Below, in pieces: positions 9,915 through 52,376 of a stretch of 64,000 nucleotides of DNA. Numbering within the stretch: the stretch's first letter is position 1; each line of letters opens with the position of its first letter. The notes under the pieces were generated by a model. It worked only from the letters and a program-made list of their open reading frames with translations, was not told where the DNA came from and did no database searches. This DNA is from Vulcanisaeta moutnovskia 768-28. Its GTDB lineage: Archaea > Thermoproteota > Thermoprotei > Thermoproteales > Thermocladiaceae. The position numbers were made by a program, and so were the translations under genes. The stretch is taken from contig NC_015151.1 in the NCBI RefSeq assembly GCF_000190315.1, positions 868,001 through 932,000 of the forward strand. The letters run 5' to 3'.

Positions 9915-10997
9915 ATGTCGAGAGGTATTTCAAAGGCGTTGATCATAGGGGTGGCCATAATTATTGCTGTAGTAATAATAGCCGTGTACTACGCTACCCA
10001 AGTCCATACGTTAAGGCAGGGTATGTCGAGTATTGGTGTTAACTATCCAATAACAGTGATTGATTACTTGGGCCGTAACATCACAATATACTCACAGCCA
10101 AGTAGTGTAGGTACCATAAGCCCTGACTGTACACAAATAATATATGTGCTTGGCTTTGGCAGTAGGGTTATCCTGATCGATGCTTATTCCGAACAACTAC
10201 TTAATTACCTAAATGTCACAATACCAAGTAATGCCACCACCATTAATTCAATATATGGATCACCACCGATAGAACCAATAATAACTGCACACCCATCACT
10301 ACTCTGTGCAGATGCTGGTTTCCAGCCACAGCTGGTGCAGAGCATTAGTACATTGAGCGCGGCTAACATTAACGTGATATTCATAGGCGGTACGAGCAAT
10401 ACAAATGTGACTGGCATAGAAAATGACATAATGCTGATGGCCAAGGCGCTTGGGGTTCCAGGTAGGGGTGAGGAGGTGATAAGTCATATGAATAATGTCA
10501 TTAATTACGTAGAGAGTAAGGTCTCGAATGAGCCTAGGGTTACCGTAGCCTACATATCATGGTATAACCCAATCTATGTTGCAGGTAACTCGTCATTTGT
10601 TGGTTACTACATTAATTTAGCCGGTGGTTATGATCCATTCAACGGCATGTACCCCACTGTAAGTCCAAGCCAATTACTCGCGGTCAATCCTGACTATATA
10701 ATTGTGGATGATTTCATGGGCAACTACACAGCAACTCTTCAGGCAATACTCTCAATACCTGGAATAAACAGTACAAATGCTGTTAAGGAGGATCATATAT
10801 ACATACTTGGTAACTTTGCAGAGAGTCTCATTGAGGAGCCGGGTCCATTATCAGTCTATGGAGCCTTGCTTCTCGCCATGATACTTCATCCAAGCGCCTT
10901 CAGTCTTAACTCAACGGCCATACCACATTACATTAGTGCCCAGTGGGTTGATCAGTACGTTAAGCCCAACTTAAATATTACGTTAAGTGATGGGTGA
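9915..10997 (+). CDS. ABC transporter substrate-binding protein, BtuF/FhuD class
   Basis: This membrane-anchored binding protein captures a metal chelate or cobalamin outside the cell. The N-terminus has one hydrophobic span (about 8-27) acting as anchor, then an extracellular domain opening with ITVIDYLGRNITIYSQPSSVGTISPDCTQIIYVLG, the usual start of PF01497-type proteins, and a C-terminal lobe (PTVSPSQLLAVNPDYIIVDD). Several N-x-T/S sequons fit an extracellular protein. The stop overlaps the permease GTG by 4 nt (GTGA), so the operon is translationally coupled. Nearby B12-dependent genes favour a corrinoid ligand, but iron chelates or molybdate/tungstate (MolA-like) remain possible. Confidence 0.85.
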   Translation: MSRGISKALIIGVAIIIAVVIIAVYYATQVHTLRQGMSSIGVNYPITVIDYLGRNITIYSQPSSVGTISPDCTQIIYVLGFGSRVILIDAYSEQLLNYLNVTIPSNATTINSIYGSPPIEPIITAHPSLLCADAGFQPQLVQSISTLSAANINVIFIGGTSNTNVTGIENDIMLMAKALGVPGRGEEVISHMNNVINYVESKVSNEPRVTVAYISWYNPIYVAGNSSFVGYYINLAGGYDPFNGMYPTVSPSQLLAVNPDYIIVDDFMGNYTATLQAILSIPGINSTNAVKEDHIYILGNFAESLIEEPGPLSVYGALLLAMILHPSAFSLNSTAIPHYISAQWVDQYVKPNLNITLSDG

Positions 10998-11992
10998 TTG
11001 CCACGGTCAGTAACCCAATTGTAAAATTCCTTTGGTTATTTATTCCATTATTATCAATCGGTATTATTCTAAATATTTTCATTGGTGAGGTCATTGTACC
11101 ACTAGGGGCATTGCTGGATCCAACACAGGCATATAGGGTCATAATAATGGATATAAGACTACCTGAGATACTTGCTTGCATAGTTGTTGGGACTGACTTA
11201 GCCGTGGCAGGCGCTGTCATGCAGGCGGTTTTTAGGAACCCTCTTGCCGAACCTTACATAACTGGAACAGCCTCTGGGGCATTATTAGGTGCGTTACTCG
11301 GCCTATTAATAAACGTCCTATTTAAGGTTGGGTCACCATCAATAATACTAATGCCATTACTATCATTCCTAGGCGCTATGCTGGCCACAATTGTCGTTGT
11401 GGCCTTTGGCAGAGGTGGTTGGTTATCGCTCATCCTCGCGGGCATTGCCATTTCAATAATGTTCTCGTCAATAGTCATGATACTTGACACGTACTTACTA
11501 ACAATAATCCCAACACTACCCGCAATAGTTTACTTACTATTTGGCACAGTGAGCGGCATTAATTGGGGTGATGATATTACTATGATTAGCGTAAGTCTGC
11601 CAGTACTTACGTATATAATGGTTAGTGCGCGTGAGGTTAACCTACTGATGATAAGTGATGAGGTTGCGCAAGCCAGTGGTACCAACCCTAAGGCATTTAG
11701 GAACTTATTGATTGTATTAACTGGATTGTTGACTGCCGTATCGGTATCATTCACCGGCATTATAGGTTTCATAGGCCTTGTAACGCCACACTTAACTCGT
11801 TTGTCAATATCAAGCTCCGATAATTCGAGAGTTATACCATTATCGATGATTTCGGGCTCCACAATAATGCTTTACGCGAATGTTGTTAGTAAGGTATTGA
11901 TTACGGGCACGGTAATGCCAATAACAGCAATAACAAGTCTCTTTGGTGTTCCTGTATTACTATTTTTGCTCAGGGGTGGTCGTAATGAGTAG
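10994..11992 (+). CDS. ABC transporter permease, FecCD/BtuC family
   Basis: This multi-span permease has about ten predicted transmembrane segments in 332 residues, the size of BtuC. Family features are RLPEILACIVVGTDLAVAGAVMQAVFRNPLAEPYITGTASGA near the N-terminus (R-L-P plus N-P-L-A-x-P) and TGIIGFIGLVTPHLTR near the coupling helix about residue 260. It starts with GTG overlapping the stop of the binding protein and ends overlapping the ATPase start by 8 nt, so the three form one tight operon. Substrate is inferred only from context. Confidence 0.9.
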   Translation: MIATVSNPIVKFLWLFIPLLSIGIILNIFIGEVIVPLGALLDPTQAYRVIIMDIRLPEILACIVVGTDLAVAGAVMQAVFRNPLAEPYITGTASGALLGALLGLLINVLFKVGSPSIILMPLLSFLGAMLATIVVVAFGRGGWLSLILAGIAISIMFSSIVMILDTYLLTIIPTLPAIVYLLFGTVSGINWGDDITMISVSLPVLTYIMVSAREVNLLMISDEVAQASGTNPKAFRNLLIVLTGLLTAVSVSFTGIIGFIGLVTPHLTRLSISSSDNSRVIPLSMISGSTIMLYANVVSKVLITGTVMPITAITSLFGVPVLLFLLRGGRNE

Positions 11993-12749
11993 TTACATAG
12001 TTAGATTTGTTAATGCTAGGATTGGGTATAATGAGCCCATTATTAAGGAAATAACGTTAAACATACCAAGGCCGAGTCTAACAACAATACTTGGGCCCAA
12101 TGGCTCTGGGAAAACAACCCTGCTTAGGGCTATAATAAAGTACGCAAGAATCTTTGGTGGTTATGCATACATTGATGGTAAGAGTATTGATGAGATTCCC
12201 ATTAGGGATTTGCCGAAGTACGTTTCGTACTCACCTGCCGAGATTTACTCGCAAATGTCGTTAACAGTTCTAGATATTGTCACGAGTTCTCGAAATGGTG
12301 AGGGTTGGATAAATAAGGATGATGCGGTCGCAGTTCTTAAGTACCTGGGTATAAATAATATTGCCAGTAAGAGATTTGATGAACTAAGTACTGGTCAGAA
12401 GAGACTTGTTTTAATAGCAAGGGCTTTGGCTTCAAAGGCGTCATTATTATTATTGGATGAACCGACATCAAACCTAGATCTCAGTAATAAATATAGGGTT
12501 ATCCTAACATTAAGAAGGATTGTTAATGATAAGGGAATTACTGTGATTGCCACTGGGCATGATATTGACCTTGCATTAATTAGCGACTGGGTTATAGCGA
12601 TAAGGAACGGGGATATAATGGCTATGGGTGTTCCAGGTGACATAATTAATAGTAAGATACTAAGTGAATTGTATGATATTGATGTGGAGGTTCTTGAGAT
12701 AAATGGGCATAGGCTTATTTATGTACATAATGAATTTATGAATGATTGA
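11985..12749 (+). CDS. ABC transporter ATP-binding protein, BtuD/FepC class
   Basis: This cytoplasmic ATPase energises the importer. The 254-residue protein (from the ATG at 11985; the frame is open back to 11943, but that part overlaps the permease and is not conserved) has Walker A GPNGSGKTTL, a Q-loop region, the signature LSTGQKR (a variant of LSGGQ), Walker B LLLLDEPTSNLD and the switch His in ATGHDIDLA. This is the pattern of iron/B12-type importers. It is the last gene of the three-gene operon; the AOR promoter follows. Confidence 0.92.
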   Translation: MSSYIVRFVNARIGYNEPIIKEITLNIPRPSLTTILGPNGSGKTTLLRAIIKYARIFGGYAYIDGKSIDEIPIRDLPKYVSYSPAEIYSQMSLTVLDIVTSSRNGEGWINKDDAVAVLKYLGINNIASKRFDELSTGQKRLVLIARALASKASLLLLDEPTSNLDLSNKYRVILTLRRIVNDKGITVIATGHDIDLALISDWVIAIRNGDIMAMGVPGDIINSKILSELYDIDVEVLEINGHRLIYVHNEFMND

Positions 12750-12830: not shown

Positions 12831-14669
12831 ATGTTTGGATGGGGTGGGCATATATTAAGGATTGATCTTTCCAGAAGGAGGTATGTTGTTCAATCACTAG
12901 ATCCATCCCTTGCACAGAACTATATTGGTGGTAGGGGCTTTGCAATAAAGACTTTATGGGATGAATTGCCGCCAGGAATCGACCCATTAAGTCCACTTAA
13001 TAAGTTAATACTTGCCGTGGGGCCATTGACGGCATTACCAATACCCAATAGTGGTAAGTTACTCGTGGCTGCTAAAAGCCCATTAACGGGTGGTTATGGT
13101 GATGGTAATATTGGTTCATGGTTAGCAGTTCATATGAGGAGGGCGGACCTTGATATGATAATAATTGAGGGTAGGGCTGAGAAACCCACGTATCTATACA
13201 TTGAGAATAAGGGCGAGGAGTTCAGGGTTGATTTTAATAACGCAGATGATTTATGGGGCCTTGACTCATTTACCACTGAGGATAGGTTAAAGAAGGTTCA
13301 TGGTAGTGACGTGGGCATGGTTCTCATAGGCCCCGCTGGTGAGAGGCTCGTGAGATTCGCAACTATCGTTGCCCAGAAGGGACGTAGTGGTGGTAGACCT
13401 GGCATAGGCGCTGTTATGGGTAGTAAAAACTTGAAGGCAGTGGTTATGAGGGGCCATGGCGACATTAAGGTTGCAGATCCAATGCTTAGGAAGATTGGCG
13501 TCGATGCCATAGTGGCCACGAAATCTAAACCAGGTTATCCATTCTGGATGAGGCAAGGAACCACATCAACGGTAGAGTGGGCTCAAGAAGCTAGTGTGTT
13601 GCCCACGTATAATTATTCCGAGGGTCAATTTGATGATTATGAAAAAATAGGTGGTTTTTCTGTTGAGAAAAATAAGATCACGACTAAATCATGTCCGCAA
13701 TGCGTCATGGCTTGCGGGCACGTGGTTAAGGACGCTGAAAACGAACCTGCTGAGTTGGATTATGAGAATATCGCAATGCTCGGTAGTAACCTTGGTATTG
13801 GTGATTTAGCTAAGGTGGCGCACCTAAATAGGATCGCGGATATGATGGGTATGGACACGATAAGCCTCGGTTCAAGCCTAGGTTTTGCAATGGAGGCTTC
13901 AGAGAAGGGGCTTCTTAAGGAGGGAATTGAGTGGGGTGATTATAAGAGAGCTGTTGATGTTGCCATGGATATAGCACTACAAAGAACCGAGCTGGGTAGG
14001 TTACTTGGTAAGGGTGTTAGGGCAGCGTCGATGGAGCTGGGTCAGGAAGCCACTGAATTTGCAATGCATGTTAAGGGTCTTGAAATAAGTGCCTATGACT
14101 GTCACGCAGCGCCAGGTATGGCATTAGCATTTTCTACAAGCCCAATTGGTGCTCATCATAAGGATGCCTGGCTAATATCCTGGGAGGTTCAGAGGGGTAG
14201 GTTTGACTATACCAAGGATAAGGTCGAGAAGCTTGTGGAAATGCAGAACATAAGGGGTGGTCTATTCGAAACAATAGTGACCTGCAGGTTCCCCTGGGTC
14301 GAGGTCGGCCTCGAACTTGATTGGTACTTTAGGTTGTTTAAGGCTGCCACGGGGATGGACATGAACATGGATATACTAAGTACTATAAATAATAGGATTT
14401 ATACATTAATCAGGGCGTTTTGGGTTAGGGAGTATGGACATTGGGATAGGGCGTATGACACACCACCTGTCAAGTGGTTCAAGAGACCATTGAGTAGGGG
14501 CCCACTCAAGGGTGCTAAGCTTGATTATGATGGTTATCAGAGAATGCTCAGTTGGTATTACGAGTTGAGGGGTTGGGATGAGAGAGGTATACCGAGAAAG
14601 GATACCTTAAGGCGTTTAGATCTTGATTTTGTGATTTCGCAACTTGGATCTAAGGTTAACCTTAATTGA
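12831..14669 (+). CDS. Tungsten-dependent aldehyde:ferredoxin oxidoreductase family protein (first copy)
   Basis: This enzyme should oxidise an aldehyde (or aldose-type substrate) to the acid with ferredoxin as acceptor, using tungstopterin and one 4Fe-4S cluster. The AOR N-terminal domain (LRIDLSRRRYVVQSLD; GGRGFAIKTLWDELPPGIDPLSPLNKL) binds the pterin. Cluster ligands are C288-x2-C291-x3-C295 (SCPQCVMAC) with Cys485 (VTCRFPW) as the likely fourth. At 612 residues the length is typical. The gene lies between the importer and the cobalamin adenosyltransferase (41-bp gap), in one direction. The substrate cannot be assigned; AOR, FOR and GAPOR-type members share this architecture. Confidence 0.92.
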   Translation: MFGWGGHILRIDLSRRRYVVQSLDPSLAQNYIGGRGFAIKTLWDELPPGIDPLSPLNKLILAVGPLTALPIPNSGKLLVAAKSPLTGGYGDGNIGSWLAVHMRRADLDMIIIEGRAEKPTYLYIENKGEEFRVDFNNADDLWGLDSFTTEDRLKKVHGSDVGMVLIGPAGERLVRFATIVAQKGRSGGRPGIGAVMGSKNLKAVVMRGHGDIKVADPMLRKIGVDAIVATKSKPGYPFWMRQGTTSTVEWAQEASVLPTYNYSEGQFDDYEKIGGFSVEKNKITTKSCPQCVMACGHVVKDAENEPAELDYENIAMLGSNLGIGDLAKVAHLNRIADMMGMDTISLGSSLGFAMEASEKGLLKEGIEWGDYKRAVDVAMDIALQRTELGRLLGKGVRAASMELGQEATEFAMHVKGLEISAYDCHAAPGMALAFSTSPIGAHHKDAWLISWEVQRGRFDYTKDKVEKLVEMQNIRGGLFETIVTCRFPWVEVGLELDWYFRLFKAATGMDMNMDILSTINNRIYTLIRAFWVREYGHWDRAYDTPPVKWFKRPLSRGPLKGAKLDYDGYQRMLSWYYELRGWDERGIPRKDTLRRLDLDFVISQLGSKVNLN

Positions 14670-14688: not shown

Positions 14689-14710
14689 GAATAATGTGTA
14701 ATTGATATTA

Positions 14711-15319
14711 ATGAGTGATAATTGTCGTTTACCGTTATTTGCAGACTGTAAAGAGGTAGATAATAGTATTAAGTGTCCTGGCGATAGTGGTTATAGTGTA
14801 ATACCACTGTTTGGCAAGAGAGTTAGAGTGCGTAAGGACTCAGCTCCAATAATGCTCATGGGTTGTTTAGATGAATTATCAAATATAGCCAATAGTACTA
14901 GACTTGATTTTGGAGGCAATGTTATTGGTGAGATAGCCTCAATAGTAATGGCATTATCAATGCAATTAAATGCCTACCTAGTGCAGGGTAGTGATGATCG
15001 ATTAAGTAGGGTTAGGAGTGTTGAGGATTTATTAATGGCAAAGATAGCTGATTTATGCCGTGGATTCAAGGGACCACTTGGTTGGATAATAGCAACAACA
15101 CCCGAGCTTCAGGCTCTCGATACCATAAGGGTTAAGTTGAGGGAGTGTGGTAGAATTGCATCATCAATGCTTGATGACTACCCACCATCAGTAAACGTAA
15201 TTAGTGTTATGAACCATGCCGATAAATTAATAGCCCAGGCCATGTATTGCATGGGTGGTCATGTGTTTAGGTCTGTTGATGATGCTATGAATTATTTACT
15301 AGGCAACATCACGAGATAA
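14711..15319 (+). CDS. Cobalamin adenosyltransferase, PduO type (divergent)
   Basis: It should transfer adenosyl from ATP to cob(I)alamin to make the cofactor of methylmalonyl-CoA mutase. The N-terminal signature is clear: GDSG, FGKRVRVRKDS and GCLDELSNI match the ATP-binding GDxGxT...RVxKDxxR...GxxDELN pattern. The C-terminal motif is degraded: where relatives have R-x3-R-R-A-E-R, this one reads RVKLRECGR, losing the second Arg and the Glu. The start is ATG 14711 (202 residues), set by the TATA box. It lies 39 bp upstream of the mutase, which strongly supports the function despite the divergence. Confidence 0.78.
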   Translation: MSDNCRLPLFADCKEVDNSIKCPGDSGYSVIPLFGKRVRVRKDSAPIMLMGCLDELSNIANSTRLDFGGNVIGEIASIVMALSMQLNAYLVQGSDDRLSRVRSVEDLLMAKIADLCRGFKGPLGWIIATTPELQALDTIRVKLRECGRIASSMLDDYPPSVNVISVMNHADKLIAQAMYCMGGHVFRSVDDAMNYLLGNITR

Positions 15320-15358: not shown

Positions 15359-17029
15359 ATGGAGAATACGGATAAAATTAAGGAAAAGTATGATGAGTGG
15401 GTTAGGGAATTTCTATTACCAACTCTTAAAAAGGTACCTGAATGGAGGAAGTTCATAACATCATTTGGCGTTGAGATAAAGCCTCTTTATACACCACTTG
15501 ATGTTAAGGATGATTATCTCGATAGACTAGGCTTTCCTGGAGAGTATCCGCTCACTAGAGGTATATACCCAAGTATGTATAGGTCAAGGCTCTGGACATT
15601 TAGGGAGTACTCAGGCTTTGGGTCGCCTGAGGATACGAATAAGAGGTATAAGTTTCTCATATCACAGGGACAGACCGGGTTAAGTGTTGCCTTTGATTTG
15701 CCAACTCAGCTAGGTCTTGATCCTGACCATGAGCTTGCGTATCCTGAGGTTGGTAAGGTCGGTGTTTCGGTTCCTGAGGTTGTTTCCATGTCAATTCTTT
15801 TTGATGATATTGATATTAGCAGAATAACTACCTCGTTCACAATAAATGCCACAGCTGCTGAGATACTATCCATGTATATAACCGTTGCAGAGAGTAGGGG
15901 TATTGATAAGGCAGTGCTTGATGGTACTATTCAGAATGACATACTCAAGGAGTTCATAGCAAGGAACCTATACATATACCCGCCACTGCACTCAATGAGA
16001 TATACAACGGACATAATAGCCTACACATCTAAGAACCTGCCCAAGTGGCATCCAATAAGTATTAGTGGTTATCACTTCAGAGAGGCGGGAGCCACTGCCG
16101 TCCAGGAACTAGCCTTCACACTAGCTGACGCCATTGAGTATACCAATTGGGTCATAAACAGGTGGAGGATGAGTGTTGATGATTTCGCGCCAGGGCTATC
16201 CTTCTTCTTCGCGGCAACAACAAATCTTTTCGAGGAGATTGCAAAGTTCAGGGCTGCCCGTAGACTCTATGCGAGGATTATGAAGGAAAGGTTCGGTGCT
16301 AGGAAGCTCGAGTCTATGAAATTGAAGTTTCACGTACAGACATCAGGTGCGGCACTAACAGCTCAACAGCCTGAGGTCAACATCATAAGGACCACAATAC
16401 AGGCATTAGCTGCCGTACTTGGCGGTGCTCAATCGCTTCATGTTAATGCCTATGATGAGGCATTATCACTCCCCACAGAAAAGTCTGTGAAACTAGCATT
16501 GAGAGTTCAACAAGTGATAGCCTATGAAAGTGGAGTCATTGATTCAATAGATCCCCTGGGTGGTTCATATTATATCGAGTGGCTCACTGATACTATTGAG
16601 GAGGAGGTCATGAAGATAATTGATTATACAGATAAGCTTGGTGGTATGACGAAAGCCGTGGAAATTGGTTACCCACAGAGGGCTATAGCTGAGTCTGCAT
16701 ATAGGTATCAAAAGATGGTCGAGGAGGGCGAGATAGCCGTGATTGGTGTAAACATGTTTAGGGAGGAGGAGAAGCTTCATATTGAGTTTCATAAGGTGGA
16801 CCCAGTATCCAGGGAGAGGAGTATCAAGCGTGTTAGGGAGGTTAGGGAGAACCGCGATAGGGAGGCTTGGGAAAGGGCTCTTAATGAGTTGAGGAGGGCG
16901 GCTGATAGGGAGGATGAGAACGTATTCCCATACATACTGAATGCCGTTAGGGCCAAGGCAACCATCGGTGAGGTATCAAGTGTATTACGTGATGTCTGGG
17001 GTGAGTACAAACCTCCGAGTATTTACTGA
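15359..17029 (+). CDS. mcmA1: Methylmalonyl-CoA mutase, large (catalytic) subunit
   Basis: This is the TIM-barrel subunit that interconverts methylmalonyl-CoA and succinyl-CoA by a radical mechanism with adenosylcobalamin. At 556 residues it has the archaeal split form without the B12-binding domain. Typical segments are [18 protein letters not shown] near residue 60, the [13 protein letters not shown] and [10 protein letters not shown]-like region (here [14 protein letters not shown]), [12 protein letters not shown] (about 235), [18 protein letters not shown] and [14 protein letters not shown]. The separate B12-binding subunit starts 34 bp downstream. An in-frame extension is not needed; the TATA-like box at 15326-15334 suits the ATG at 15359. 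Confidence 0.96.
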
Positions 17030-17063: not shown

Positions 17064-17462
17064 ATGCATATGCCTAAGCCTAAAATAATCATTGCCAAGC
17101 TTGGTCTTGATGGTCATGATAGGGGCGCCAAGGTAATTGCAAGGGCGTTGGCGGAGGCAGGCTTTGAGGTTGTTTATACGGGTATTAGGCAGACGCCTAG
17201 CCAGGTTGTTGAAACCGCTATTCAGGAGGATGCTAAGTTAATTGGCATTAGTATATTGTCTGGTTCACACCTGGAGCTTGTGGGTGAGTTAATGAGGATT
17301 ATGAAAGAGAAGGGTGTGAGTATTCCAGTGCTTGTTGGTGGTATAATACCACCTGAGGATAAGGAGGCATTACTTAAGATGGGTATTGCGGGCGTTTATG
17401 GCCCAGGTACTTCACTTAAGGAAATAATTGATATTGTAAAGAAGCTTGTGGGTGTTTCCTAA
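17064..17462 (+). CDS. mcmA2: Methylmalonyl-CoA mutase, small (B12-binding) subunit
   Basis: This 132-residue protein is a flavodoxin-like cobalamin-binding domain. The motif [12 protein letters not shown] carries the D-x-H-x2-G signature whose His replaces the lower base of B12; the later [13 protein letters not shown] and VGGIIPPED loops complete the site. The open frame extends upstream to 16941 into the end of the large subunit, but homology begins at the ATG 17064 (MHMPKPKI). The stop overlaps the next ATG by one base (TAATG), coupling translation to the MeaB-epimerase fusion. Confidence 0.95.
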
Positions 17463-18760
17463 TGAGCATTGATATTAATGAGTTGCTTATTAGGGTGCGT
17501 AATTGGGATAAACTTGCAATTGCAAAGCTAATAACACTGGCTGAGGAGGGTATTGAGGTACCACTAGGTATTCAGCATAGGAGCCATGTAATTGGCATAA
17601 CGGGACCACCAGGTTCTGGTAAAAGCACGTTGATATATACAATGGCTAGGAAAATACCTCAGGAAAAGAGAATTGCAATATTGACTATAGATCCATCTAG
17701 TCCGTTCACTGGTGGTTCATTTATGGGTAATAGGATTAGGATGCAGGAGCTTACCTCAAGGCCGAATATATACATTAGGAGTATGGCTACGAGGGGAATA
17801 CGTGGAGGACTTAACTATGCGACAATAGCCGCGGTTAATGTACTTGAGTACGCAGGTGCGGACTACATATTCATTGAGACTGTTGGTGCCGGGCAATCAG
17901 ATACAGATATTAAGTATGTAGCGGACACAATACTAGTATTAGTACCACCGCTCTCTGGCGATGAAATTCAAGCACTTAAGAGTGGACTTATGGAGATTGG
18001 TGATATTTACGTAGTTTCAAAGTCCGATAACCAAGTATCTGAGTCAACGTATAGGGACTTAATGGCCATGGTTGATATGATGAAGGAAATAAAGGGTAAT
18101 TCATGGAAGCCCATTGTTGTTAAGGTATCTGGATTGTATGGATATGGTGTTGATGATTTATTAAGGTTAATTGATGATAGATTTAGGGAGTTAATTAATA
18201 ATGGTAGATTAAGCGAGTCCTTGATTAGTAGAAGATTACTCGAGATGAGGCTTTACGCGTATGACTTGCTTGAGAAGAGCCTTATTGAGAGGAAGGATCT
18301 GGAGAGTGAGGTCGTTAGTGGTAAGTTAACACCGCAGGAGGCGGCAAGGAGATTACTAGGTATGGAGAGGCCGAGGCTTGATCACGTGGCTATTGCGGTT
18401 AAGGATCTTGATGGTACGATTGAGAAGTTTAGGAAGTTGGGGCTTAGGGTTAGTGATCCTGTAATTGTTGAGGAGCAGGGGGTTAAGGTTGCGATGGTGT
18501 GGCTTGGTAATACAAGGATTGAGTTACTGGAGCCGCTTAATCCTAATTCAACGGTGGCTAAATTCCTAGAGAGTAGGGGCGAAGGTATTCATCATATAGC
18601 CCTTGAGGTTAATGACCTAGAGGAATTTATTAAGAGGGTTCAGGAGGCCGGCCTTGTAATTACTGGTAAGCCGAGTAAGGGTGCTGAGGGCCTTGTCGTA
18701 TTTATCCACCCAAAGAGCCTTAACGGTGTGCTCCTTGAATTGGTGCAGCACAGGGCATAA
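17462..18760 (+). CDS. Fusion of MeaB/ArgK-type mutase chaperone GTPase and methylmalonyl-CoA epimerase
   Basis: Two enzymes of one pathway lie in one 432-residue chain. Residues 1 to about 295 are a MeaB G3E GTPase: P-loop GPPGSGKST (48-56), DPSSPFTGGSFMGNRIRM (78-94), FIETVGAGQSD (137-147) and SKSD (186-189, the NKxD equivalent). MeaB-type proteins protect and reactivate the mutase. Residues about 303-432 are a glyoxalase-fold epimerase: RLDHVAIAVKDLD (His308), RIELLEP (Glu354), IHHIALEV (His377/378) and GVLLELVQ (Glu426), fitting the metal ligands. No stop or frameshift separates the parts; the linker KLTPQEAARRLLGMERP is short. It follows the small mutase subunit with a TAATG overlap. Confidence 0.93.
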   Translation: MSIDINELLIRVRNWDKLAIAKLITLAEEGIEVPLGIQHRSHVIGITGPPGSGKSTLIYTMARKIPQEKRIAILTIDPSSPFTGGSFMGNRIRMQELTSRPNIYIRSMATRGIRGGLNYATIAAVNVLEYAGADYIFIETVGAGQSDTDIKYVADTILVLVPPLSGDEIQALKSGLMEIGDIYVVSKSDNQVSESTYRDLMAMVDMMKEIKGNSWKPIVVKVSGLYGYGVDDLLRLIDDRFRELINNGRLSESLISRRLLEMRLYAYDLLEKSLIERKDLESEVVSGKLTPQEAARRLLGMERPRLDHVAIAVKDLDGTIEKFRKLGLRVSDPVIVEEQGVKVAMVWLGNTRIELLEPLNPNSTVAKFLESRGEGIHHIALEVNDLEEFIKRVQEAGLVITGKPSKGAEGLVVFIHPKSLNGVLLELVQHRA

Positions 18761-45549: not shown

Positions 45550-46428
45550 TTACTGCTTAGTCAATACCTTCAGAACGACTGCGAAATCCTCCTCAGAAAG
45601 ACCCAGCCTCTCGGCCATCCTATAAAACTGAAGTGCAAGGGAAGCCATTGGTATTGGAACACCACGTACCGAGGCCTCCTTATTAACGATATCCAGGTCC
45701 TTACGCATATGCTTAAGGGCAAACTGAACCGAATAATCACCACTGAGCATCTTAGGAACCTTCAACTCAGAGGTCGGTGACCTCGCACTCGATAACTTAG
45801 TCAATACGTCTAGAATGACGGAGTCACTCAACCCAAAGGCCTTACCTAACTGAACAACCTCGGCCAGTGCAACAACGTAGGAACCGAGCAATGCATTGTT
45901 TATGAGCTTAGCGTAGAGTCCGAAGCCGTTTGGTCCAACGTGGATTATGGTCTTAGCAGTGTATTGCAAGACATCCTTAGCTCTGTTAAATGCCTCTTCA
46001 GAACCGCCAACAAGCACCACTATTTCCTTCCTCTCAACGGCCACGGAAGTACCAATCACCGGCGCATCAACCATGTCACTACCCCTAGACTTAACAATAT
46101 TGGCTAGTTCTATTGAAACGCTTGGCGATATCGTGGACATATCTATAACTAGGGAACCAGGCCTTAAGTCATTTAATACACCGTCACTACCCGCGATAAC
46201 ATTTCTAACAGCATCATCATCACTTAGCATGGTGATTACCACATCGGAGACCCTGGCAAGCTCGCTTGGCACCTTAAAGGCCTCAACACCAAACTCCCTA
46301 CTAAACCTTAGGGCTTTGTCGAAGGACCTGTTATATACCCCAATCAATAACCCCGCATCCCTGAGATTCTTTGCTATTCTCCACCCCATCACACCAAGAC
46401 CCGCTAGTCCAACCTTAACGTTGACCAT
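45550..46428 (-). CDS. Beta-hydroxyacid dehydrogenase (3-hydroxyisobutyrate dehydrogenase family)
   Basis: This NAD(P)-dependent enzyme of the 6-phosphogluconate/beta-hydroxyacid superfamily has 292 residues. The N-terminal Rossmann domain has GLGVMG at 10-15, and the substrate-binding segment DAPVIGTSVAVERKEIVVLVGG has Ile-Gly-Thr where Ser-Gly-Gly is usual. Catalytic Lys174 lies in GLYAKLINNALLG. The C-terminal helical domain completes the fold. The substrate may be a small hydroxy acid or aldehyde; the unusual IGT variant makes a guess unsafe. It stands alone on the minus strand, next to a gap holding a dead MFS gene. Confidence 0.88.
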   Translation of the reverse strand: MVNVKVGLAGLGVMGWRIAKNLRDAGLLIGVYNRSFDKALRFSREFGVEAFKVPSELARVSDVVITMLSDDDAVRNVIAGSDGVLNDLRPGSLVIDMSTISPSVSIELANIVKSRGSDMVDAPVIGTSVAVERKEIVVLVGGSEEAFNRAKDVLQYTAKTIIHVGPNGFGLYAKLINNALLGSYVVALAEVVQLGKAFGLSDSVILDVLTKLSSARSPTSELKVPKMLSGDYSVQFALKHMRKDLDIVNKEASVRGVPIPMASLALQFYRMAERLGLSEEDFAVVLKVLTKQ

Positions 46429-50519: not shown

Positions 50520-52376
50520 TTATAAGAGGTATTCAAACTCCTCAAGCCCTAATTTCTTCAGCGTATCTCTCATAGGCTTGCCATCGACCCAACCCCTCAA
50601 CTTATAGTACACCTTTATACCCTCATCAAACATCTTAGCTGCTGAGTGTCCCTTGGCAGGCCCATCTGGTATTGGTTCCCTCATTCTAGGCGGTAACTCA
50701 TCCTTAATCCACTTACCCTCTCTAACCCAATGTAGTCTCTCAACATTGAATATCCTCTCGCCGATAGTGAGCACATCCTGCGGTGTTAGATCCCAGCCGA
50801 AGGCTGCATTGTATAAGTCTGCGAAGTCCTTCTCGGTATCTATATTGGGCATTAGGTTCTCGAATTTGCAGAAGACCGTGGAGTCGACAACGGCAAATAT
50901 ATCCTGGTTCCACTTAACTATTCTGGCTTGCTTCTCAATACATTCCTGGGTCTCACAGAATGGATCAACTTTTTCAGGAACTCCGAATATCTCCCATGTT
51001 GGTGTGTATGCCTCCAAGTGATCACCACCCCTATTAGCTGTGTAATAGGCTATGGCAAAGCCCTTGAGTGCCCTTGGGTCATAGGCAGGCAATCCCTGAC
51101 CCCTCGAACCAACAAAGAGCTGTGGCATTCCGTACTTAACAGCAAGTCTATAATCGCCTTCAGCTAAGTCGTCACCGATGCCATCCCTATACGCAATCTT
51201 GTATATTAGGTATTCAAGAGCACCTGCATCGCCCCAGTCAACATCTAGGTTCAACTTACCATTTTTGGCTAGTTCCACAGCCATGGATAGTGTATTGCCT
51301 AGGCTTATTGTATCGAGACCGAGTTCATTAGCGAGCTTCTGGAACTTCATATTTGCCTCGGGATCCGTCAAGCCAACATTTGGTCCAAGGGCCCAAGTAT
51401 TTTCGTACTCCTGCTTGACGTATTTCTCAGTAACTGTAAATTTGAATGGTCCCGACTTAACTGTCGGCATTTGTGTGCAGGCTATTGGGCAATTGTAGCA
51501 ACCGTGGGTCTCCGTTGGGTAATGATCCTTTATGTACTCCTCACTAACTGGTGTTACATCCTTAAGCTTCCCAGTACCACTAAAGTTATAGTGAGGTAGT
51601 GCACCTATTGACTGTACAATGTTCATTAACACGTTTGTACCGTACTTATGAAGGACCTTTGTCGTATCATGTGTCGCTATTCTCTTTACAATGTCCGTGT
51701 TAACCTTCATGAACTTAGCCCTATCAACAAGTTCCTTATTTAGGTCCCTAGTTCCCCAAACCAATATGCCCTTGAGTAGCTTACTACCCATCACAGCGCC
51801 AACGCCGCCCCTGCCCGCGAACCTCTCATAATCACTCATCCTAATACCCGCAAACTTAACCAGGTTCTCACCTGCTGGTCCAACCACTGCAACACCTGCC
51901 TTTGTCTCATCAGGTGGAAATCCGTTCTCCTCAAGTATTATCTTAGTAGATGCCCCAGTCCACTTACCCCAAATGTGCTTTGCTGGTCTTAGCTTTGGTT
52001 CACCATCCTTAATAACCAGGTATACCGGTTCATCCGACTTACCCTCAATTATTAAGCCATCATAACCAGATTTCCTAAGCCAATATGAGAAGTTACCACC
52101 TGCATTTGCGTGAGTATAAACGCCATTTAATGGTGATCTAGTGGTTACATTTACCCTGCTTGAGGATATTGTGGCTATGCCACTCAACGGCCCTGAGAAT
52201 ATGAATAACTTATTGCTTGGACTTAATGGATCAATACCCCTTGGTATCTCCTTAAGAGCCATGTATGCTGCTAACCCCCTACCACCAAGGAACCTCTTTA
52301 GAAGATCCTCCTTTATCACCTCCTCAGTGAAATGCTCCCTTGATAAGTCGACTCTCAGTATTCTGAAAACCGTCAT
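50520..52376 (-). CDS. Tungsten-dependent aldehyde:ferredoxin oxidoreductase family protein (second copy)
   Basis: This 618-residue paralogue of the AOR at 12.8 kb has LRVDLSREHFTEEVI, then LGGRGLAAYMALKEIPRGIDPLSPSNKL (pterin domain), the cluster motif C293-x2-C296-x3-C300 (CYNCPIAC) and Cys503 (VFCKFEN) as the probable fourth ligand. The two proteins share the domain layout but differ in loop sequences, consistent with different substrates. It stands alone, convergent with mscS, divergent from the phosphatase gene. The TATA box GTATATAAG (52398-52406) supports the ATG at 52376. Confidence 0.92.
   Translation of the reverse strand: MTVFRILRVDLSREHFTEEVIKEDLLKRFLGGRGLAAYMALKEIPRGIDPLSPSNKLFIFSGPLSGIATISSSRVNVTTRSPLNGVYTHANAGGNFSYWLRKSGYDGLIIEGKSDEPVYLVIKDGEPKLRPAKHIWGKWTGASTKIILEENGFPPDETKAGVAVVGPAGENLVKFAGIRMSDYERFAGRGGVGAVMGSKLLKGILVWGTRDLNKELVDRAKFMKVNTDIVKRIATHDTTKVLHKYGTNVLMNIVQSIGALPHYNFSGTGKLKDVTPVSEEYIKDHYPTETHGCYNCPIACTQMPTVKSGPFKFTVTEKYVKQEYENTWALGPNVGLTDPEANMKFQKLANELGLDTISLGNTLSMAVELAKNGKLNLDVDWGDAGALEYLIYKIAYRDGIGDDLAEGDYRLAVKYGMPQLFVGSRGQGLPAYDPRALKGFAIAYYTANRGGDHLEAYTPTWEIFGVPEKVDPFCETQECIEKQARIVKWNQDIFAVVDSTVFCKFENLMPNIDTEKDFADLYNAAFGWDLTPQDVLTIGERIFNVERLHWVREGKWIKDELPPRMREPIPDGPAKGHSAAKMFDEGIKVYYKLRGWVDGKPMRDTLKKLGLEEFEYLL

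Follow-up and report, generated by a model that had tools for sequence, protein, structure and literature searches.

A fusion of the G-protein MeaB with methylmalonyl-CoA epimerase conserved in Vulcanisaeta and Thermocladium

The window, a stretch of 64,000 nucleotides (positions 868001-932000) from the single-contig, 2,298,983 bp genome of Vulcanisaeta moutnovskia, contains an open reading frame that joins a complete MeaB G-protein (residues 1 to ~300) to a complete methylmalonyl-CoA epimerase (residues 304-432) with a linker that is nearly nil. The fusion is real and is conserved across two genera of hot-spring archaea, Vulcanisaeta and Thermocladium. Each half is a member of a known family, and fusions involving MeaB-like G-domains are known (IcmF), while the pairing of MeaB with the epimerase is a new domain combination. 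A published MeaB-epimerase fusion was not found in the open literature searched, though databases may list the architecture, nor was a complex of the epimerase with either the chaperone or the mutase found in the open papers searched. The genome has no copy of MeaB and no copy of the epimerase other than those in the fusion, such that both functions, if needed, must come from this protein.

The fused gene and its two halves

The fusion gene (432 amino acids) opens with ATG and has no internal stops, and both of its halves score above curated equivalog cut-offs, adopt the expected folds, and keep the key residues (Table 1). The MeaB half matches PF03308 over residues 40-276 (238.8 bits; cut-off, 23.1; E 7e-71) and TIGR00750 (249.9 bits; cut-off, 240.75), the latter match extending to residue 298, and possesses a P-loop (GPPGSGKS, 48-55), the switch I (D77) and switch II (E139) residues, switch III (D167/Q170/K173), and a base-specificity motif (SKSD, 186-189). 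Amongst the 11 fused proteins, down to 53-54% identity, the P-loop (G48-S55), D77, E139, D167, Q170, K173, S186, K187, and D189 are invariant. The switch III residues align to D182/Q185/K188 of the MeaB from Methylobacterium extorquens, which link GTP hydrolysis to cofactor delivery (PMC9974510). In the AF2 model of the fusion (pLDDT 83), the MeaB half resembles MeaB structure 8dpb (Foldseek; TM(target) 0.78) and its C-terminal helices correspond to the dimerisation arm, the region that MMAA uses both to dimerise and as the hinge when it rearranges on mutase binding (PMC10356863). The G-domain, the switch I/II/III residues, the C-terminal arm region, and an operon shared with methylmalonyl-CoA mutase are all features in common with M. 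extorquens MeaB and human MMAA, but the known MeaB/MMAA proteins stop after the arm, whereas the Vulcanisaeta protein continues into the epimerase.

The epimerase half matches TIGR03081 over residues 305-429 (131.4 bits; cut-off, 114.95), with the two intact Thermocladium copies scoring just under the cut-off (112.5 and 106.7 bits). Its AF2 model is close to 3oa4 (Foldseek; TM(target) 0.89, rmsd 1.2 Å). The metal ligands are H308, E354, H378 (with H377), and E426, four positions that nearly all of 62 homologues conserve and that are invariant across the fused proteins; in human MCEE the metal ligands are His50, His122, and Glu172 (PMC6525113). The position of the catalytic Glu43 of the Streptomyces coelicolor enzyme is occupied by V343, and 46 of the 62 homologues, as well as the human enzyme, likewise have valine here. 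This position is valine or isoleucine in the human and Bacillus proteins and in most homologues, so that Glu43 is not a family-wide requirement and the valine need not be a sign of decay. The vicinal-oxygen-chelate fold, the metal ligands, and the TIGR03081 score above cut-off are shared with MCEE/Mce (human 3RMU, S. coelicolor 6WF6, and Metallosphaera Msed_0639), which elsewhere is a stand-alone protein of 130-150 amino acids and here is a C-terminal domain.

The two domains meet right after the region equivalent to the dimerisation arm/hinge of MMAA. In the AF2 model, the last arm helix (291-298) passes almost straight into the first strand of the epimerase (305-312) through a junction of 5-7 residues, with no long flexible linker, and amongst the fused proteins the junction is very short and nearly constant in length. 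Across MeaB, epimerase, and junction, dN is far below dS.

The preliminary description, which had read the gene as a single chain of a MeaB/ArgK GTPase and a complete epimerase, with all G motifs and the expected ligands and with no stop or frameshift between the domains, agrees with the PF03308/TIGR00750 and TIGR03081 matches in one open frame, with the GTPase, switch, and metal-ligand residues conserved in the 11 fused proteins, and with a frame that is intact in nine Vulcanisaeta and two Thermocladium independent genomes. The chance that a sequencing or assembly artefact joined two genes is negligible. Several JCM drafts do carry frameshifts in the region, but the frame is whole in complete genomes and in independent assemblies of different species, errors of this kind disrupt a frame and do not create one, and the 11 intact frames exclude such an origin. 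Four fusion copies are broken (G012, G017, G020, and G021), every one in a low-completeness draft, and in three of these four genomes the mutase frame is likewise broken. Many genes, including the fusion and the mutase, are frameshifted in three JCM drafts (L037, L038, and L048); these frameshifts are probably sequencing errors and may hide the fusion in annotations.

Table 1. Features of the fusion gene and its surroundings in the window, with the two bacterial fusions
Feature	Position	Strand	Extent or evidence
FecCD/BtuCDF-type ABC importer (binding protein, permease, ATPase)	9915..12749	+	best permease model BtuC, under equivalog cut-off
Tungsten aldehyde oxidoreductase, FOR type	12831..14669	+	PF01314/PF02730; closest structure 1b25
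Divergent PduO-type ATP:cob(I)alamin adenosyltransferase (predicted), 205 aa	14702..15319	+	weak PF01923; AF2 and Foldseek
Methylmalonyl-CoA mutase large subunit	15359..17029	+	PF01642 (MM_CoA_mutase), 702 bits; alignment with 4r3u and human MMUT
Methylmalonyl-CoA mutase B12-binding (small) subunit	17064..17462	+	PF02310; TIGR00640, 161.7 bits
MeaB-epimerase fusion, 432 aa	17462..18760	+	
MeaB/MMAA-type G-protein domain	17462..18355	+	residues 1 to ~298; profiles, alignment, AF2
Junction	18356..18373	+	residues ~299-304; AF2 secondary structure, alignment
Methylmalonyl-CoA epimerase (vicinal oxygen chelate fold) domain	18371..18757	+	residues 304-432; TIGR03081, Foldseek
Bacterial MeaB-epimerase fusion L105	434-1945 of L105	minus	Met at epimerase start
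Bacterial MeaB-epimerase fusion L106	3081-4484 of L106	plus	Met at epimerase start

The mutase locus and the source of methylmalonyl-CoA

The fusion gene directly follows the genes of both mutase subunits, with its ATG (17462-17464) sharing one base with the stop codon TAA (17460-17462) that ends the B12-subunit gene, in the overlap TAATG given in the preliminary description. An alternative in-frame start for the B12-subunit is possible upstream at 16941. Substrate specificity of the methylmalonyl type is marked by Tyr89 and Arg207 (Propionibacterium shermanii numbering), while Ile90 and Asp117 are the HCM residues. The large subunit possesses the methylmalonyl-type tyrosine (REYSGF) and arginine (ARNLY) and an alanine at the HCM Asp117 position. 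Its closest PDB match is a 2-hydroxyisobutyryl-CoA mutase (4r3u), an identity that was rejected on the presence of the methylmalonyl-type residues and the absence of the HCM residues.

Upstream of the mutase genes, where an adenosyltransferase had been proposed, the protein at 14702-15319 is a divergent PduO-type protein and a putative adenosyltransferase. The fold bears out the proposal, with all 16 Foldseek matches of the AF2 model (pLDDT 84.5) at E<1e-3 being PduO-type adenosyltransferases, while the sequence is divergent, scoring under the Pfam cut-off (17.5 bits against 24 for PF01923); it is 73-84% conserved among Vulcanisaeta. The gene of the FOR-type oxidoreductase ends 33 bp before that of the adenosyltransferase, an adjacency present in every Vulcanisaeta locus examined, and possibly belongs to the same operon as the mutase genes. 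The encoded protein scores 715 bits to 1b25 (Pyrococcus furiosus FOR) versus 310 to AOR. As a constant partner of the fusion this gene fails, being absent from both the fusion locus and the mutase locus in Thermocladium. A second tungsten aldehyde oxidoreductase, 31% identical to the first, is encoded at 50520-52376. The ABC importer directly upstream, whose permease is best matched by the BtuC model, possibly carries corrinoids. In Thermocladium (L012/L013/L039), the B12-subunit and fusion genes occur alone, beside the genes for ribosomal proteins L19e and L18, and the large subunit is encoded elsewhere, about 30 kb away in one genome (G014), such that the fusion need not be translated together with the whole mutase.

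Biotin-type propionyl-CoA carboxylase, transcarboxylase, and sodium-pumping decarboxylase all use a PF01039 carboxyltransferase domain. This domain was found in none of the 15 Vulcanisaeta and Thermocladium genomes, which rules out all three enzymes, and its only occurrence in the order was in a single genome (G001); the same search of control genomes returned a match in 12 of 14, including Sulfolobus acidocaldarius. As a replacement for propionyl-CoA carboxylase, crotonyl-CoA carboxylase/reductase was also rejected, with no match over the cut-off and only generic dehydrogenase matches far under it. Judged from these searches, the usual source of (S)-methylmalonyl-CoA appears to be missing from the fusion genomes and the reaction that requires the epimerase is left without a known partner. 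The epimerase thus does not stand between a propionyl-CoA carboxylase and the mutase, a difference that concerns the pathway and not the enzyme family, and the (S)-methylmalonyl-CoA that the mutase would receive, as first suggested for this protein, has no evident source.

Distribution and origin of the fusion

Within the order, the fusion is present in all 12 Vulcanisaeta and all three Thermocladium genomes and in no other (four of the 15 copies being the interrupted ones), with the Thermocladium proteins about 54% identical to those from Vulcanisaeta. The mutase has the same distribution, and this exact co-occurrence supports a bifunctional role for the fused protein. In a survey of 398 Thermoproteota genomes, the epimerase was detected at E<=1e-15 in 147. 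Among the matches listed outside of the fusion group, all epimerases are stand-alone frames (<=232 amino acids), which bears out the earlier statement that the two genes are separate in most organisms. The MeaB matches outside the group likewise occupy their own frames, and the few long ones that were checked lack an epimerase. These rejected candidates include the long MeaB frames of G399, G179, G251, and G096 and several from bacteria, none with an epimerase in the same frame, and plasmid-borne matches in which MeaB and the epimerase are merely neighbours.

Among 300 genomes related to one Bacillota genome, an unbroken MeaB-epimerase frame occurs in two (L105 and L106), while in others of this set the meaB and epimerase genes are adjacent with at least one stop between them. 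The suggestion that the fusion might be a trait of the Thermoproteales was accordingly too broad on one side and too narrow on the other: within the order only Vulcanisaeta and Thermocladium have it, and it occurs independently in at least two bacteria. Phylogenetically, the MeaB parts from Vulcanisaeta and Thermocladium form one clade (100/100) among the archaeal MeaBs; those of L105 and L106 are placed separately from one another among the bacterial MeaBs. The epimerase tree agrees, with the Vulcanisaeta and Thermocladium parts in one clade (98/90). As the trees set L105, L106, and the archaeal clade apart, at least three independent fusions from operon neighbours are indicated, and the two bacterial fusions appear to be recent and independent. 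The bacterial operons of Ilyobacter and Acetoanaerobium contain the same genes in the same order as the Vulcanisaeta locus (mutase large subunit, B12 subunit, meaB, and mce), but as separate genes, L105 and L106 being among the rare exceptions that are fused. From this shared order, the probable origin of the archaeal fusion is that neighbouring meaB and mce genes lost the stop codon separating them, probably in a single event in the ancestor that Vulcanisaeta and Thermocladium share. One MeaB sequence from a record titled 'Euryarchaeota archaeon' (L046; JAFMDM010000030.1) groups with the Sulfolobales (95/96), and the relatives of that genome include Metallosphaera; the record is probably mislabelled.

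Possible function of the fused protein

The fused protein is probably bifunctional, a MeaB that bears a methylmalonyl-CoA epimerase on its C-terminus and would be tethered to the mutase through the dimerisation arm of MeaB, with the activities, the assembly, and the tethering all predicted from its parts. The MeaB half would act as a GTP-driven, switch III-dependent gate that opens the mutase for the loading and repair of adenosylcobalamin, and the epimerase half would interconvert (R)- and (S)-methylmalonyl-CoA, so that a single gene product could suffice to recruit both functions to the mutase. Since the separate domains are homodimeric and the dimerisation arm leads into the epimerase, the likeliest assembly would be a dimer in which both dimer interfaces are satisfied and which is held at the mutase by MeaB. 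Such a dimer would place the epimerase near the mutase and might either limit or exploit the movement of the MeaB arm. That the fusion channels substrate is put forward as a hypothesis only.

A simpler account, to which a substantial probability somewhat short of even is assigned, is that the fusion is neutral: a stop was lost between neighbours, the domains work independently, and the gain is at most equal stoichiometry. Bacteria with the same gene order and unfused genes are consistent with this, as are L105 and L106, which keep a methionine at the start of the epimerase and look recent, and the junction and arm are more variable than the MeaB core, with dN of the segment 277-310 up to two to three times the MeaB value. 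Neutrality fits less well with a fusion that every Vulcanisaeta and Thermocladium genome retains across a divergence reaching 54% identity, that was never seen to have split again, and whose junction is so short and so nearly constant in length. That an internal start also yields an epimerase on its own, alongside the full-length chain, is improbable; an in-frame ATG does occur three codons ahead of the epimerase in the window, and similar codons are found in L002, L003, L008, and L009, but in L005 and L006 the 18 codons ahead of the epimerase include no ATG, GTG, or TTG. Equally improbable is that the epimerase domain now serves MeaB in a structural or regulatory role (e.g., as a dimer lock) and lost epimerisation for want of propionyl-CoA carboxylase. 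The lack of a PF01039 protein in the fusion genomes would suit such a role, and so might the valine at the Glu43 position were it not common to the human enzyme and most homologues; the invariance of all four metal-ligand positions and the strong purifying selection on the epimerase half argue against it.

The bifunctional protein has its nearest parallel in IcmF (fused isobutyryl-CoA mutase), in which a MeaB-like G-domain is also joined to a partner of the same B12 system. In IcmF, however, the mutase polypeptide itself contains the G-domain, placed between its B12 and substrate domains, whereas in the present fusion the G-domain is paired with the epimerase and each mutase subunit has an open reading frame of its own. 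The fusion offers a natural, presumably heat-stable, tether of an epimerase to the G-protein chaperone of the mutase, and with it two matters become testable: whether the epimerase normally works beside the mutase, and the large rotation of the MeaB dimer when the arm bears a second dimeric domain.

The absent biotin carboxyltransferase raises the question of the source or sink of methylmalonyl-CoA. A bolder and rather unlikely reading, slightly less so than the internal start or the dimer lock, is that the fusion is the sign of a mutase pathway that runs without propionyl-CoA carboxylase, with an undescribed non-biotin feed or drain of methylmalonyl-CoA and an epimerase on a hinged arm mechanically coupled to the GTPase cycle. 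In Vulcanisaeta, one example of a non-biotin route might be the oxidation of methylmalonate semialdehyde to methylmalonate by the FOR-type oxidoreductase, followed by activation with CoA; this route is speculation, as the FOR-type gene is not beside the Thermocladium fusion and mutase genes. Elsewhere in the window, a protein of the 3-hydroxyisobutyrate dehydrogenase family, under the equivalog cut-offs, is encoded at 45550-46428; it might belong to a route in which methylmalonate semialdehyde is derived from valine.
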